This document shows positions 33,760-37,266 of a DNA stretch of 39,639 nt, one piece after another. A model generated the notes under the pieces. That model did no database searches, was not told where the DNA came from, and saw nothing but the letters and a program-made list of their open reading frames with translations. Source of the DNA: an uncultured Prevotellaceae bacterium (lineage in GTDB: Bacteria; Bacteroidota; Bacteroidia; Bacteroidales; Bacteroidaceae); the NCBI GenBank assembly GCA_902776545.1, contig CACYQO010000021.1:1-39639 (forward strand), in the 5' to 3' direction. A program made the translations under genes and the position numbers. Positions within the stretch are counted from its first letter, which is position 1. Each line of letters starts with the position of its first letter.

Positions 33760-34377
33760 TTAGTTGATGGTATCAATATCCATTTTTACCTTTTTCCCTT
33801 TGCCTTTAAGTATTTCCAAGAGTCTTTTACCAAATTTGATCTGACGTTCAGCGACTCCTTTCTCCCGCCATTTCTCAAACGGCCAGGTGATTTTCCCTTT
33901 TCGTGCAGGATTGCCAACGGAATACTTATTGCATTTCTTGACGAACACTTTCTTAAAGGGCCAATTCTCAACATCCCTTACGAACTGTTCTATGCCTCCG
34001 TTATATCCTTTTTGGAGAAATATCTGATAGGCAGTACCCCATGAGGCATCAGCCCACCAATAACCCTCAGCTAAAGTCTGCTCACATGCCGCCGCCATAT
34101 CTGCCGCCGTTAGTGGCACTTCTTCCTGTTCTTCCTCTTCCACGCTTTGCTCTTGCTCTCTCACAACGGGGACAGTCCCTTTTGTGAGATTCTGGGATTC
34201 CGGGCCGTTCACCTGACCGATATTCTCAAAGTGGAAAGTCCCGTCCTTATCCATTGAGAAATTGATCGTATCGACATGCTCAATGAACTGTCCTACAGGC
34301 TTGAAGAAGTTATAGTTTCGCTCCACATGGCGATTCTTCAAACGCTCCTCATATTCCTCTATCTTCTTGTCATCCAT
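33760..34377 (-). CDS. unknown protein of module B with a REP-derived insert
   Basis: The start MDDKKIEEYEERLKNRHVE at 34377 gives 205 residues; the frame is open to 34440 but that overlaps the upstream gene. VGQFIEHVDTINFSMDKDG, then the decapeptide LTKGTVPVVR (codons 64-73), an acidic run (EQSVEEEEQEEV) and a helical C-terminal domain ending in basic residues. The decapeptide is encoded by an exact member of the 29-nt REP family of the nearby RAYT (34160-34188), so it was added by insertion. Otherwise unknown. Confidence 0.6.
   Translation of the reverse strand: MDDKKIEEYEERLKNRHVERNYNFFKPVGQFIEHVDTINFSMDKDGTFHFENIGQVNGPESQNLTKGTVPVVREQEQSVEEEEQEEVPLTAADMAAACEQTLAEGYWWADASWGTAYQIFLQKGYNGGIEQFVRDVENWPFKKVFVKKCNKYSVGNPARKGKITWPFEKWREKGVAERQIKFGKRLLEILKGKGKKVKMDIDTIN
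34160..34188 (+). repeat. REP palindrome inside the 33760-34377 gene
   Basis: CTCACAA, core GGGACAGTCCC, TTTTGTGAG. It reads LTKGTVPVVR on the coding (minus) strand, in frame. Same family as 34970, 35197, 35803 and 36128. Confidence 0.85.
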
Positions 34378-34387
34378 AATAACCTTT

Positions 34388-34948
34388 TTAACAGACCACA
34401 CCAACAGGTGCATTAAATGTGTATTGCATCCTACAGTCATCTTTGATGCAAGCCTTCAATTCGTTGAAAGCACCATTGTCGTCAGGATAGATACGACGTA
34501 GCATCACCTCTGTATATAGCGCGCCTAAGGGACCAAGTGTTTTCGCCTCTTCAATGATACGATGCAGCAAGTCTGCCTCGTCTTTTTCATTGCCAGTCTG
34601 CCTGATGCTTTCCAGCTCTTTTATCTTAGCATCGATTTGTTGGTCCTTGTATTTTCCATCGTCTATCAGACGTTGTATCTCTGAATATGGCGAGTACACC
34701 CCATCTTCAATCTGGGTGACTATACATTCTATGTGGGCTGCCGTTTCCTCTTTGAAGAGCGACCTCTCTGGAGCATTGTGGAGAGCATTAAGAATAATAC
34801 GTGCCAGAGCCAGTTTGTCCGACCTACTCGGCTGCATGTCGATAAACGCCTCAATAAAGTCCTTTGAGAATTCATGTGTCAGCTTTTTCCAATCGAGAGC
34901 AGCAGCCTCTTTCTCATCTTTTCTTTCTAATTTCCTTGCAATAATCAT
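34388..34948 (-). CDS. unknown protein of module B (186 residues)
   Basis: First coding gene behind the minus-strand promoter at 35236-35267. Strongly charged and helical (IIARKLERKDEKEAAALDWKK; DAKIKELESIRQTGNEKDEAD), no signal peptide, ends CRMQYTFNAPVGVVC. It is followed after 10 nt by the 205-residue gene. I do not recognise the family. Confidence 0.55.
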   Translation of the reverse strand: MIIARKLERKDEKEAAALDWKKLTHEFSKDFIEAFIDMQPSRSDKLALARIILNALHNAPERSLFKEETAAHIECIVTQIEDGVYSPYSEIQRLIDDGKYKDQQIDAKIKELESIRQTGNEKDEADLLHRIIEEAKTLGPLGALYTEVMLRRIYPDDNGAFNELKACIKDDCRMQYTFNAPVGVVC

Positions 34949-34969
34949 CTCTTATTTCTTTAGTTTTAT

Positions 34970-34998
34970 CTCACAATAGGGACAGTCCCTTTTGTGAG
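34970..34998 (+). repeat. REP palindrome, left unit of an inverted pair
   Basis: CTCACAATAGGGACAGTCCC followed by TTTTGTGAG. Its exact reverse complement is found inside the transposase gene (35803-35831). It lies in the leader of module B, 22 nt ahead of the 34948 start. Confidence 0.9.
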
Positions 34999-35196
34999 AG
35001 TGTGAAAGTGTGGGCAAGAGGGCAGAATACATCGTACTAACTAGGCTCACCACAAGCCCATACTCCTACGTAAACCACCATTGCCCACGTTCCACATTGG
35101 TATGCGGGAACATGAGCCTGGCAGTCCTTCTCTTTCAGGAGTATTCTTCGAGGTGGTGATTCGATAGTACTGAAAAGGGCGACTGTTCGCTCAAAT
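34999..35196. other. 198-nt non-coding filler between two REP units
   Basis: No supported gene. A minus-strand frame (35037-35321) crosses it, but the frame runs through the promoter and a REP, and it has no Met until late. It may be a decayed gene end; the minus strand reads AYQCGTWAMVVYVGVWACGE. It is transcribed as part of the module B leader. Confidence 0.4.
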
Positions 35197-35225
35197 CTCA
35201 CAACAGGGACAGTCCCTTTTGTGCG
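35197..35225 (+). repeat. REP palindrome, right unit near the transposase promoter
   Basis: CTCACAACAGGGACAGTCCC followed by TTTTGTGCG. It lies 11 nt downstream of the minus -7 element, so it covers the start of the module B transcript. Confidence 0.85.
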
Positions 35226-35235
35226 ATTTTCACTG

Positions 35236-35313
35236 CAAAGGTAGGAAAATAATAATGAATAACCAAAATTTTGCCTTAAAATTTGGTTGTATATGAAAAA
35301 AGTCCTACCTTTG
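35236..35313. promoter_or_regulatory. divergent promoter pair: module B (minus) and RAYT (plus)
   Basis: Minus strand: TTTG at 35267-35264, 20-nt spacer, TACCTTTG at 35243-35236. Plus strand: TTTG at 35282-35285, 20-nt spacer, TACCTTTG at 35306-35313. Both are exact matches with the same spacing, with 14 nt between the two -33 elements. The inverted repeat AACCAAAATTTT/AAAATTTGGTT holds both -33 elements. Both starts are predicted to fire from a shared region. Confidence 0.75.
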
Positions 35314-35343
35314 CAATGCATTTTTCACTTAAATTTAAACACT

Positions 35344-36126
35344 ATGACAAGACAATCAAGAAAAAAAAGCATGAGCGGAATTTATCACGTTATGCTTCGC
35401 GGTATCAACAAGAGCGACATTTTTCACGACCGTATGGATTTCGTAAAGTTTAGAATTCTATTGGAACAGGTTGTTCACCCTGTTGACGAACTTGGTCATC
35501 CTATGCCTCCCAGATGCCGGATCTTCGCTTACTGTATGATGTCCAATCATGTTCATTTGCTTGTGAAAGAGGAATCGGACAATCTATCCACACTCATCAA
35601 ACGCATCGGAGGTTCATACGCACAGTATTATAATGTGAAATATCAGCGCGTTGGACATCTTTTCCAAGACCGTTTCCGCAGTGAGCCGGTGGAGACCGAT
35701 GCCTATTTCATCACACTTCTCCGATACATCCACCAGAACCCTGTCGCTGCTGGCCTGACAAATGACGTCCTATCCTACGAGTGGAGCAGCTGGCGCGAAT
35801 TTCTCACAAAAGGGACTGTCCCTATTGTGAGAAAGGAAGAAGTCTTTGACCGAATCTCGTTCGAGGACCTTGTAGATTTGGTGAACGAGCCACTGCCAAA
35901 GACCACAGTTATCCTTGACTATAACACGAAAGCCCAAGCGCGGAGCGACGAAGAAGTGTCAGTCTTTTTGTGCGACACCTTCTCATTAAAGAGACCGGAG
36001 GACCTGGCTTTGTATTCTCCTGACCGTCTATCCGACATTGTACGTCAGGCAAAGGATTTCGGTGCAAGCATCCGTCAGCTTGTACGTCTGACAGGCATCA
36101 GTTTTCACCGCATCCGGGTCACCTGA
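35344..36126 (+). CDS. REP-associated tyrosine transposase (RAYT, Y1_Tnp/IS200-like)
   Basis: A 260-residue protein. The HUH motif is N68H69V70H71LLV and the Y1 part is YAQYYNVKYQRVGHLFQDRF (residues 92-111), with candidate nucleophile tyrosines at 92, 95 and 96. RAYT proteins act on single-stranded REP/BIME hairpins. REP units occur on both sides (34970, 35197, 36128) and inside the gene (35803-35831), where they encode LTKGTVPIVR (residues 154-163). The frame stays open through the insertion and continues to a normal-looking C-terminus. ATG 35344 is chosen because the promoter lies 31 nt upstream. Confidence 0.85.
   Translation: MTRQSRKKSMSGIYHVMLRGINKSDIFHDRMDFVKFRILLEQVVHPVDELGHPMPPRCRIFAYCMMSNHVHLLVKEESDNLSTLIKRIGGSYAQYYNVKYQRVGHLFQDRFRSEPVETDAYFITLLRYIHQNPVAAGLTNDVLSYEWSSWREFLTKGTVPIVRKEEVFDRISFEDLVDLVNEPLPKTTVILDYNTKAQARSDEEVSVFLCDTFSLKRPEDLALYSPDRLSDIVRQAKDFGASIRQLVRLTGISFHRIRVT
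35803..35831 (+). repeat. REP palindrome inside the RAYT gene
   Basis: CTCACAAAAGGGACTGTCCC followed by TATTGTGAG, the exact reverse complement of 34970-34998. It reads LTKGTVPIVR in the frame of the transposase. Confidence 0.9.
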
Positions 36127-36127
36127 T

Positions 36128-36156
36128 CTCACAATAGGGACTGTCCCCGTTGTGCG
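36128..36156 (+). repeat. REP palindrome behind the RAYT stop
   Basis: CTCACAATAGGGACTGTCCC followed by CGTTGTGCG. It starts 2 nt after the RAYT stop codon, so it also forms a 3' hairpin for its mRNA. Confidence 0.85.
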
Positions 36157-36257: not shown

Positions 36258-36287
36258 GGCACAAAGGTGCCAGACCCTTTTGTGTCC
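36258..36287 (-). repeat. 30-nt palindromic repeat (GACACAAAAGGG family), copy 2
   Basis: On the minus strand GGACACAAAAGGGTCTGGCA followed by CCTTTGTGCC. It starts 4 nt behind the MNT stop; partner of 1986-2015. Confidence 0.7.
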
Positions 36288-36291
36288 TTAA

Positions 36292-36612
36292 TCAGGCTGC
36301 AATGCCCGTGCGCATTACGTCGCGGTAGAGCATTGTGTCCTCTTCTTCAGACATCAATACGGGCTCGATGAGCAGACTCACCTTGTCTACGTCGTGCCAG
36401 AGGTCGGCCGAAAGTTCCAGCCAGTCCTCGTCTTTCAGGCTCGGCAGGATGACGGCCACGTCGATATCGCTCCAGGGATTGGCATTGCCCTTCGAGTAGG
36501 AACCGAAGAGATAAACCCTCGGCTCGCAGTCGAACCGCGCCGATATCACTTGCTTATATTGTCTGACGAGGCTGAGGGCTTCGTCTTTTGTGAGCACTTT
36601 TGGAGTATCCAT
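36292..36612 (-). CDS. MNT nucleotidyltransferase antitoxin (MntA-like)
   Basis: A 106-residue minimal nucleotidyltransferase. GS38YSKGNANPWSD49ID51VAV is the G-S-x10-D-x-D signature. In type VII toxin-antitoxin systems MntA adds AMP to a tyrosine of the HEPN toxin and silences it. The N-terminus overlaps the HEPN gene end by 67 nt on the same strand. Function as an antitoxin is by family and pairing. Confidence 0.85.
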   Translation of the reverse strand: MDTPKVLTKDEALSLVRQYKQVISARFDCEPRVYLFGSYSKGNANPWSDIDVAVILPSLKDEDWLELSADLWHDVDKVSLLIEPVLMSEEEDTMLYRDVMRTGIAA

Positions 36613-36983
36613 TGCTTGAACTTTTTGGTTTCGTCGATAAGATAGGCACTGCCTTTCTCGTTGAGCATCCGCGCTACCTGACTCTTATATTCAGGATAGC
36701 GCCCTGCTATGTACATGGGCGACATGATTTCTATGAAGCGCCGCTGTGTTTCGCTCAACTGGTCTTTCAACCCACAGCCTTCCAGCAGCCGGAAGTGGTT
36801 GTGCAAGTAAATCGGCTCGTCGTCGCGGCAGGCCAGCCAGTAGCCCTTGACGAGCTTCTCCACGGCCTGATGGCAGAGGAATCCGATGTAAAGCCAGTGA
36901 CCCGTATTGAAAAGGGCTTCAGCGGTATCGATGTCCTCGTCCACTTGCTCGAACCATTTCCTCGCGATATCTTCGCTTGCCAT
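36546..36983 (-). CDS. HEPN-domain toxin (HepT-like)
   Basis: The start MASEDIARKWFEQ at 36983 gives 145 residues; ATG 37016 in frame lies inside the promoter, so it is not used. WLYIGFLCHQAVEKLVKGYW and LHNHFRLLEGCGL are typical of small HEPN domains. The RNase motif is not a clean R-x4-6-H: the R in ACRDDEPIYLH is followed by seven residues before His, so the toxin may be unusual or weak. Its -7 element is at 37014-37021. Confidence 0.8.
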   Translation of the reverse strand: MASEDIARKWFEQVDEDIDTAEALFNTGHWLYIGFLCHQAVEKLVKGYWLACRDDEPIYLHNHFRLLEGCGLKDQLSETQRRFIEIMSPMYIAGRYPEYKSQVARMLNEKGSAYLIDETKKFKQWILQKCSQKTKPSASSDNISK

Positions 36984-37013
36984 AATCGTCGTTATTTTTA
37001 CGTTTTGCGGCTG

Positions 37014-37045
37014 CAAAGATACGAAGAAATCTTCAAATATGCAAA
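37014..37045 (-). promoter_or_regulatory. promoter of the HEPN/MNT pair
   Basis: Minus strand TTTG at 37045-37042, 20-nt spacer, TATCTTTG at 37021-37014; an exact -33/-7 match. Transcription starts near 37008, 25 nt before the HEPN ATG. Confidence 0.75.
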
Positions 37046-37116: not shown

Positions 37117-37136
37117 ATATTTATATATAGATACCT

Positions 37137-37192
37137 TAAAAGTGGATATTTATATAAATATCTATAGATACTTATATAAATATCCACTTTTA
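37137..37192. repeat. 56-nt near-perfect palindrome
   Basis: 21-nt arms starting TAAAAGTGGATATTTATATA pair with TATATAAATATCCACTTTTA, and the 14-nt middle contains the perfect palindrome TATCTATAGATA. Only one pair (37158 with 37171) fails. A partial direct repeat of the left half precedes it (37115-37134). Confidence 0.9.
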
Positions 37193-37266
37193 ATCATCTT
37201 ACCCCTTTTTCCTGTTTCGGGGTGTTTGTTCATTTGTTCATAAGATTATTTGTAACTTCATGAACA

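Follow-up and report, generated by a model that had tools for sequence, protein, structure and literature searches.

An in-frame copy of a dispersed palindrome within a Y1 transposase gene of an uncultured Prevotellaceae bacterium, with a hint of concerted evolution among resident copies

Repetitive extragenic palindromes (REPs) that both flank a Y1 transposase gene and lie in frame within it have been described for the tnpA-REP genes of subclass 2.4 (Quentin et al. 2018, PMC6006769), and the kind of arrangement reported here is therefore already known. REPs inside other genes are likewise known (PMC3733652). The TIRtrons of Di Nocera and colleagues (2013, PMC3733652) comprise a Y1 transposase of the TIRYT type and flanking repeats, many of them with GGGGWSAS; some of these repeats are self-complementary and dispersed as small families, and some overlap gene ends. 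The palindromic elements of Rickettsia lie in frame in many unrelated genes (PMC10969869, PMC3733652), and the closest solved fold is that of Escherichia coli TnpA-REP (PMC8266576, PDB code 4er8). Here we describe a locus of an uncultured Prevotellaceae bacterium (assembly GCA_902776545.1) in which a Y1 transposase gene is surrounded by copies of a short palindrome and carries one of them in frame. The locus lies on contig CACYQO010000021.1, whose 39,639 nucleotides were analysed as a whole (the window); it is contig 21 of a 4.2-Mb draft genome in 166 contigs (completeness 93.7, contamination 7.6).

In contrast to subclass 2.4, the copy in this gene lies past the tyrosine and the WSSW motif of a protein with 2.1-like motifs, and it comes with no added length. 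Compared with the TIRtrons, the repeats are short palindromes in which the fourth G of GGGGWSAS occurs in some copies alone (GGGGACAG on one strand of the copies at 34160 and 36128, AGGGACAG in the other three window copies). One copy lies mid-gene, whereas the overlaps named in PMC3733652 concern the 5' or 3' end of genes, with none mid-gene among them. The large type of Rickettsia palindromic element was considered for its in-frame insertion and rejected on length (~150 bp, PMC10969869, against 25–35 nt here); RPE-4 and RPE-6 are short CGTC-tagged repeats (PMC3733652). A further difference from the Rickettsia elements is that a candidate transposase is identified here, itself carrying a copy. 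Relative to E. coli TnpA-REP, the locus lacks the GTAG foot, encodes a longer C terminus, and has a palindrome inside the gene. Our preferred explanation, to which we assign a probability of roughly 60%, is a transposase–palindrome unit with in-frame spread, the resident copies of which were subsequently kept intact and rewritten in concert.

A preliminary description of the window had placed five copies of the palindrome within 2 kb, and a pattern search together with an inverted-repeat listing recovered all five, intact, at these positions (Table 1). Six window sites match CACAANNGGGACWGTCCCNNTTGTG at up to 3 mismatches, five of them exactly (mean 0.00 over 100 shuffles); the sixth is a degraded copy at 36260 that had not been listed. 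Three further observations were confirmed: positions 35802–35832 and 34969–34999 are exact reverse complements across 31 nt, the copy within the transposase gene is read in frame as LTKGTVPIVR, and the CTCACAA of the last copy starts 2 nt past the final base of the stop codon TGA (36124–36126). The arms CTCACAA and TTGTGAG had been ascribed to all five copies, but the copies at 35197 and 36128 end in TTGTGCG and have imperfect outer arms.

The genome-wide mapping that had been proposed as a check reveals a dispersed family, in which 39 sites match CACAANNGGGACWGTCCCNNTTGTG with 3 mismatches or fewer, 22 of them perfectly; the reversed control pattern matches at 0 sites. Thirty-five sites have an intact core; 29 of these are preceded by TC[TG], 24 are followed by [AC]GA, and 23 have both, which indicates a palindrome of ~31 nt. 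At up to 2 mismatches, at least one match is found in 30 of 200 genus genomes, few of which have many: our genome holds 38, G160 28, G114 21, G120 18, and G018 9. All 10 of the G120 sites among the matches listed have GGGTCAGACCC or its complement as their core, which may represent a third repeat type; a transposase search of G120 gave no match.

Homologs of the transposase were found in 18 of 60 genomes in one search and in 105 of 398 genus genomes in another. The single close homolog, at 82% identity, belongs to G114, the metagenome-assembled genome RUG13113 of an uncultured Prevotellaceae bacterium, and the next full-length proteins reach at most 58%. In line with the homolog comparison suggested in the preliminary description, this protein has both the palindrome and the peptide LTKGTVPIVR at the same place, in a genome that holds the palindrome family. 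We compared 45 distinct homologous genes (from 50 loci, our own included) and counted a loop after WSSW as free of the palindrome if it had none with an arm of at least 12 at up to 2 mismatches. By this measure, only our gene and that of G114 carry a palindrome in the loop, both in genomes with the family; weaker arm-10 palindromes overlap the loop in at least 3 homologs (L002, L195, and L005).

The preliminary description had taken the palindrome for a peptide insert that interrupts the gene. Among the 43 homologs without a loop palindrome, 39 have a loop of equal or greater length and 4 have one that is two residues shorter, which rules out an added peptide. "Interrupted" is likewise misleading, because the gene is no longer than most repeat-free homologs. 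That interpretation is supported in part. Either the palindrome replaced the loop or the flanks shrank afterwards, and the data favor neither. A loop no longer than in most homologs would also be expected if LTKGTVPIVR were native sequence that matches the repeat by chance. We nevertheless regard this as excluded for practical purposes, since a 35-nt near-perfect palindrome matching 39 dispersed sites is beyond chance, as the shuffles also indicate, and since the loops of repeat-free homologs differ in sequence and often contain an I/V-C motif.

Several homologs have different palindromes of their own adjoining the gene. A G-rich flanking palindrome lies beside 17 of the 45 genes (our own and that of G114 counted), as judged with a loose filter that passes some chance-like cases (L193). 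Two more distant relatives of the transposase in our genome, on contigs C36 and C80 (L068 and L069), have palindromes of the GAGAGCCGAGGATGC and GGTCACATC types nearby.

Between our transposase gene and its G114 homolog, the proportion of synonymous differences (pS) is 0.684 outside the palindrome and 0.111 in the palindrome codons (1 of 9.0 sites). Counted by codon, synonymous change affects 1 of 11 palindrome codons and 92 of 192 elsewhere (Fisher one-sided p = 0.010). A neutral leftover, i.e. a copy that landed in frame by chance in a tolerant loop and seems conserved through short elapsed time, would fit the in-frame copies in many other genes and the coil predicted at the site; with the surrounding synonymous divergence saturated and a single change in the palindrome, we consider it quite improbable. 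Autoregulation, by a hairpin, formed by the mRNA or by single-stranded DNA of the gene, that is bound by the gene's own product, lowers expression, and is kept for that reason, would account for synonymous sites that are nearly frozen. The mRNA stretch is also more stable than its shuffles (z −2.89; 2 of 200 equally stable; predicted RNA hairpin of the in-gene copy −18.9 kcal/mol), though this is expected of any palindrome, and the in-gene and post-stop copies would be transcribed if the putative promoter is correct. However, other sites shared with G114, coding and intergenic, are equally conserved (arms changed at 2 of 120 positions over six sites), so that the conservation is not special to the transposase gene, and 43 of the 45 homologs lack the loop palindrome. 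Hairpin regulation of the transposase is a guess that we consider unlikely; the in-gene copy would rather be a by-product of spread than a control element.

The copies shared by related genomes differ systematically at their central base. Orthologous sites were paired by their flanks with repeats masked, and six same-type sites are orthologous between our genome and G114: one in QueH, three at the transposase, and two others. The centre differs at all six and has changed from A/T to G/C at five, which is the prevailing type of G114 (13 of 15 exact sites); our genome and G160 have no G/C centre at any of their 39 and 29 sites, respectively. Change is concentrated at the centre relative to the arms (Fisher p = 5e-7). 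In the in-gene copy, the central base (T to G in G114) is the sole synonymous change, and its match to the G114 type is weak evidence when taken alone because it is one change. None of nine site pairs between our genome and G160 has changed to G/C and two show A/T flips (5 of 6 versus 0 of 9, p = 0.002), and both of the two pairs with G018 have A/T centres. At QueH the centre is A/T in our genome, G160, and G018 and C in G114, where it turns a leucine into a proline; G/C is therefore likely the newer state at this site. The centre count leaves out the pair L037/L225 (6 differences of 25, offset 55) and the paired-repeat sites L058, L063, and L066; these paired-repeat sites did not switch to G/C. 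The site comparison itself leaves out 3 of 26 sites in G114, 2 of 29 in G160 (all with 2–3 mismatches), and 1 of 9 in G018.

A mutation hot spot at the unpaired tip of the hairpin could produce such differences without concerted evolution. The centre is indeed unpaired in the predicted hairpin, A/T flips do occur between our genome and G160, and no pair with G114 has kept its centre. A hot spot would be expected to mix the types within genomes, and the absence of G/C centres from our genome and G160 makes it the less likely reading; we give it a minor chance. Five sites that changed in parallel, all in the same direction, speak best for a rewriting of resident copies or for selection by a changed enzyme, and suggest that resident copies, the one in the transposase gene included, evolve in concert.

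In-frame copies are not confined to the transposase gene. Thirteen of the 39 sites lie in frame within genes supported by an open reading frame (ORF) and a Pfam match: the transposase, QueH, a HAD hydrolase, a family 2 glycosyltransferase, GH95, an Lnb-like protein, GH97, Obg, QueA, Lpd (dihydrolipoyl dehydrogenase), 5-FTHF cyclo-ligase, MenC, and MenE. A fourteenth lies in the 226-residue ORF of the window, and another (L037) overlaps the stop codon of an M15 peptidase gene. The copies of the GH95 and Lnb genes are near the N terminus, ahead of the Pfam domain, and those of QueA, 5-FTHF cyclo-ligase, MenC, and MenE are each half of a paired, REPIN-like repeat. The copies are read in three frames, giving peptides of the LTKGTVPIVR, HNGDSPFCE, and SQKGLSPLC types.

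Repeat-free orthologs mostly differ by whole codons. They are shorter by 12 residues for QueH (6 of 6), 6 for Obg (13 of 14), 7–10 for Lpd (10 of 10), 4–15 for QueA (12 of 12), 20–23 for MenC (7 of 8), 12–19 for 5-FTHF cyclo-ligase (10 of 11), and ~21–22 for MenE (two orthologs); for the HAD, GH95, and Lnb genes, no ortholog was found among the collected loci compared. Several copies are shared among related genomes: the QueH copy in our genome, G160, G018, and G114, the repeat pair of 5-FTHF cyclo-ligase in our genome, G160, and G114, the Obg and GH97 copies in our genome and G160, and the glycosyltransferase copy in our genome and G018. In MenC, paired repeats occupy one and the same place in our genome and in G114 but are read in different frames, and the G114 peptide resembles that of our QueA pair, which points to reuse or replacement at a site. 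L058, L063, and L066 (contigs C38, C86, and C15 of our genome) carry palindromes of a second type, in which two inverted repeats are paired across a short spacer. Where our glycosyltransferase and GH97 genes have the palindrome, the glycosyltransferase of G013 (L266) reads VNCQLSTVN and the GH97 protein of G018 (L277) reads TPPTPHSSK, both repetitive-looking; loops that bear palindromes may accept short repeats in general.

By its HuH motif, its tyrosine, and a Y1_Tnp match above cut-off, the protein encoded by the palindrome-bearing gene is a Y1 HUH transposase and a RAYT in the wide sense (class 2, Y---NP). It contains NHVH (residues 68–71), YIHQNP with the putative catalytic Y128, and WSSW (147–150), and N68, H69, H71, Y128, N132, and P133 are invariant in 10 aligned sequences. 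Its score against NCBIfam NF047646 (REP_Tyr_transpos) is 56.7 bits (E 2.5e-15), below the required 80. Judged by the subclass criteria of Quentin et al. (2018, PMC6006769), which give an HuH–Y spacing of ~58–67 for subclass 2.1, the protein resembles subclass 2.1/TIRYT in NHVH, in the SS after the core (within WSSW), and in the 59 residues from H69 to Y128; 20 of the 26 TIRYTs described there fall in that subclass. YIHQNP is the Y motif listed there under subclass 2.6, not 2.1. Subclass 2.6 itself (Bacteroidetes; a 21-residue insertion between helix C and strand 4, spacing ~82) was rejected on the spacing, and subclass 2.4 (YIxNNP, copy between HuH and Y) on the motif and on a copy at residues 154–163, past Y128.

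The AlphaFold model of the transposase, built on a 10-row alignment, has a mean predicted local distance difference test (pLDDT) score of 85.4 (77 over residues 151–160). As structure prediction had been proposed to show, the stretch encoded by the palindrome falls in a coil (residues 155–161), flanked by helices 150–154 and 164–170. PDB code 4er8 is the best structural match to the model; it was reached by a profile search, a single-sequence search of the PDB having given 0 matches at E 0.01, and the structure comparison (Foldseek, VIA) is uninformative on the C-terminal domain by itself. In the profile alignment, W150-R151 corresponds to residues 137–138 of E. coli TnpA-REP, which places the palindrome-encoded loop at the start of the C-terminal extension. 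The corresponding extension of the E. coli enzyme matters in binding and cutting, and its tail (residues G160 and E161) contacts the GTAG foot (PMC8266576). The C-terminal helices of our model (226–239, 243–250, and 254–259) may form a helix-turn-helix, the kind of C-terminal domain (Bac_DnaA_C, HTH_23, or HTH_28) that serves as a criterion for subclass 2.1/TIRYT; HTH_23 matches, weak at best (E 0.0077), occur in 5 of 10 homologs and not in the window protein. A ratio of nonsynonymous to synonymous substitution (dN/dS) of 0.067 overall, against the G114 homolog, indicates that the protein is under selection.

Under the preferred explanation, a Bacteroidales (probably Prevotellaceae) unit would comprise a domesticated type of Y1 HUH transposase and its own dispersed palindrome family. 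Judging from the family to which the enzyme belongs, it most likely takes the palindromes as substrates in the form of single-stranded hairpins. Copies would settle between genes and, in frame, within tolerant loops of ordinary proteins, and one would have taken over a loop in the C-terminal extension of the transposase before the lineages of the window and RUG13113 split. Resident copies would stay intact and be rewritten to match the type current in their genome, whereby fixed-site copies, including the one in the gene, would evolve in concert; the transposase itself would perform the copying or rewriting. That REP-like palindromes are overwritten in place, in intergenic regions, in housekeeping genes, and in the transposase gene, probably by a hairpin-recognizing transposase, with the in-gene copy joining the specificity of the enzyme and the type of the repeat in a single piece of DNA, is a possibility that we put forward tentatively.

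Several observations weigh against this explanation. If G114 sites with as many as 3 mismatches are counted too (26 in total), 19 have a G/C centre and 7 an A/T centre, and the upstream copy of the transposase has not switched (A to T). Spacers have changed at 9 of 24 positions, and the centre does not differ significantly from them (p = 0.072), which is why we place weight on the direction of change. Site pairs were sought among loci with a repeat in both genomes, and some pair at an offset of 12–46 nt. The conservation of the in-gene copy rests on one pair, as there is one close homolog in 398 genus genomes. GTAG or CTAC, the classical REP foot, occurs in the 37-nt stretch of just 1 of the 39 sites, and G160 has 29 sites (up to 3 mismatches) but no match to the transposase at E 0.001 in a draft that is 82% complete. 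Some repeat-free orthologs do not follow the expected lengths: Obg of G006 (L131) is 2 residues longer, MenC of G006 (L102) just 5 shorter, 5-FTHF cyclo-ligase of G014 (L138) 1 longer, and seven GH97 orthologs range from 2 residues shorter to longer, those of G018 and G009 being longer.

Table 1. Features of the transposase locus (window coordinates)
Feature	Position	Strand	Remarks
Y1 (HUH, single-tyrosine) transposase gene, 260 aa, RAYT/TIRYT type	35344..36126	+	Pfam Y1_Tnp 3.2e-11; 4er8 match
Palindrome copy within the transposase gene	35800..35834		Reads LTKGTVPIVR (residues 154–163); same site and peptide in G114 (L181), 34/35 nt identical
Palindrome copy immediately 3' of the stop codon	36127..36157		Copy at the corresponding place in G114
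Palindrome copy ~115 nt 5' of the ATG, upstream of the putative promoter	35193..35229		Copy at the corresponding place in G114
Palindrome copy between the divergent neighbor ORF and the transposase	34969..34999		Exact reverse complement of the in-gene copy
Palindrome copy in frame in the minus-strand ORF 33760–34440 (NLTKGTVPVVREQ)	34159..34189		ORF listing, inverted repeats
Degraded or related palindrome (CACAAAGGTGCCAGACCCTTTTGTG)	36260..36284		3 mismatches to the pattern
226-aa ORF with a palindrome copy in frame	33760..34440	-	No Pfam family; all matches weak
Putative promoter (TTTG, 20 nt, TACCTTTG)	35282..35313	+	Identical spacing and distance to the ATG in G114

A search of 12 genomes with the 226-residue ORF gave weak matches alone (at most 32%). 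The putative promoter is of the Bacteroidetes type; G114 has a second TAnnTTTG closer to the ATG. The stretch from the upstream copy to the gene (35231–35318) is a 73% inverted repeat with TACCTTTG in both orientations, possibly a divergent promoter pair; the minus-strand motif was not found in the corresponding stretch of G114. Directly downstream of the transposase, on the minus strand (36292–37016), an ORF for an NTP_transf_2 nucleotidyltransferase adjoins a HEPN ORF, presumably similar to an MNT/HEPN pair. An AT-rich palindrome of 58 nt lies at 37136–37193 with arms that are 97% complementary; an Rfam scan gave 16 matches, all under the gathering scores, of which 14 are microRNA models on this palindrome. 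In the open-licence literature searched, we found no report of a palindrome mid-gene in subclass 2.1/TIRYT or of centres switching in concert across orthologous sites.

On the question of how REPs disperse and keep their uniformity, an old review, by Higgins in 1988, is said to ask in its title about gene conversion. The present locus extends in-gene palindromes to a transposase like those of a group that Quentin et al. (2018, PMC6006769) describe without REP-like flanks. Sites shared by two species whose prevailing repeat types differ can be traced, one such site being in a coding gene where an amino acid is altered, and the spread and uniformity of REPs thereby become testable. The centre switch is a hint that palindromes evolve in concert, a fresh and testable idea.

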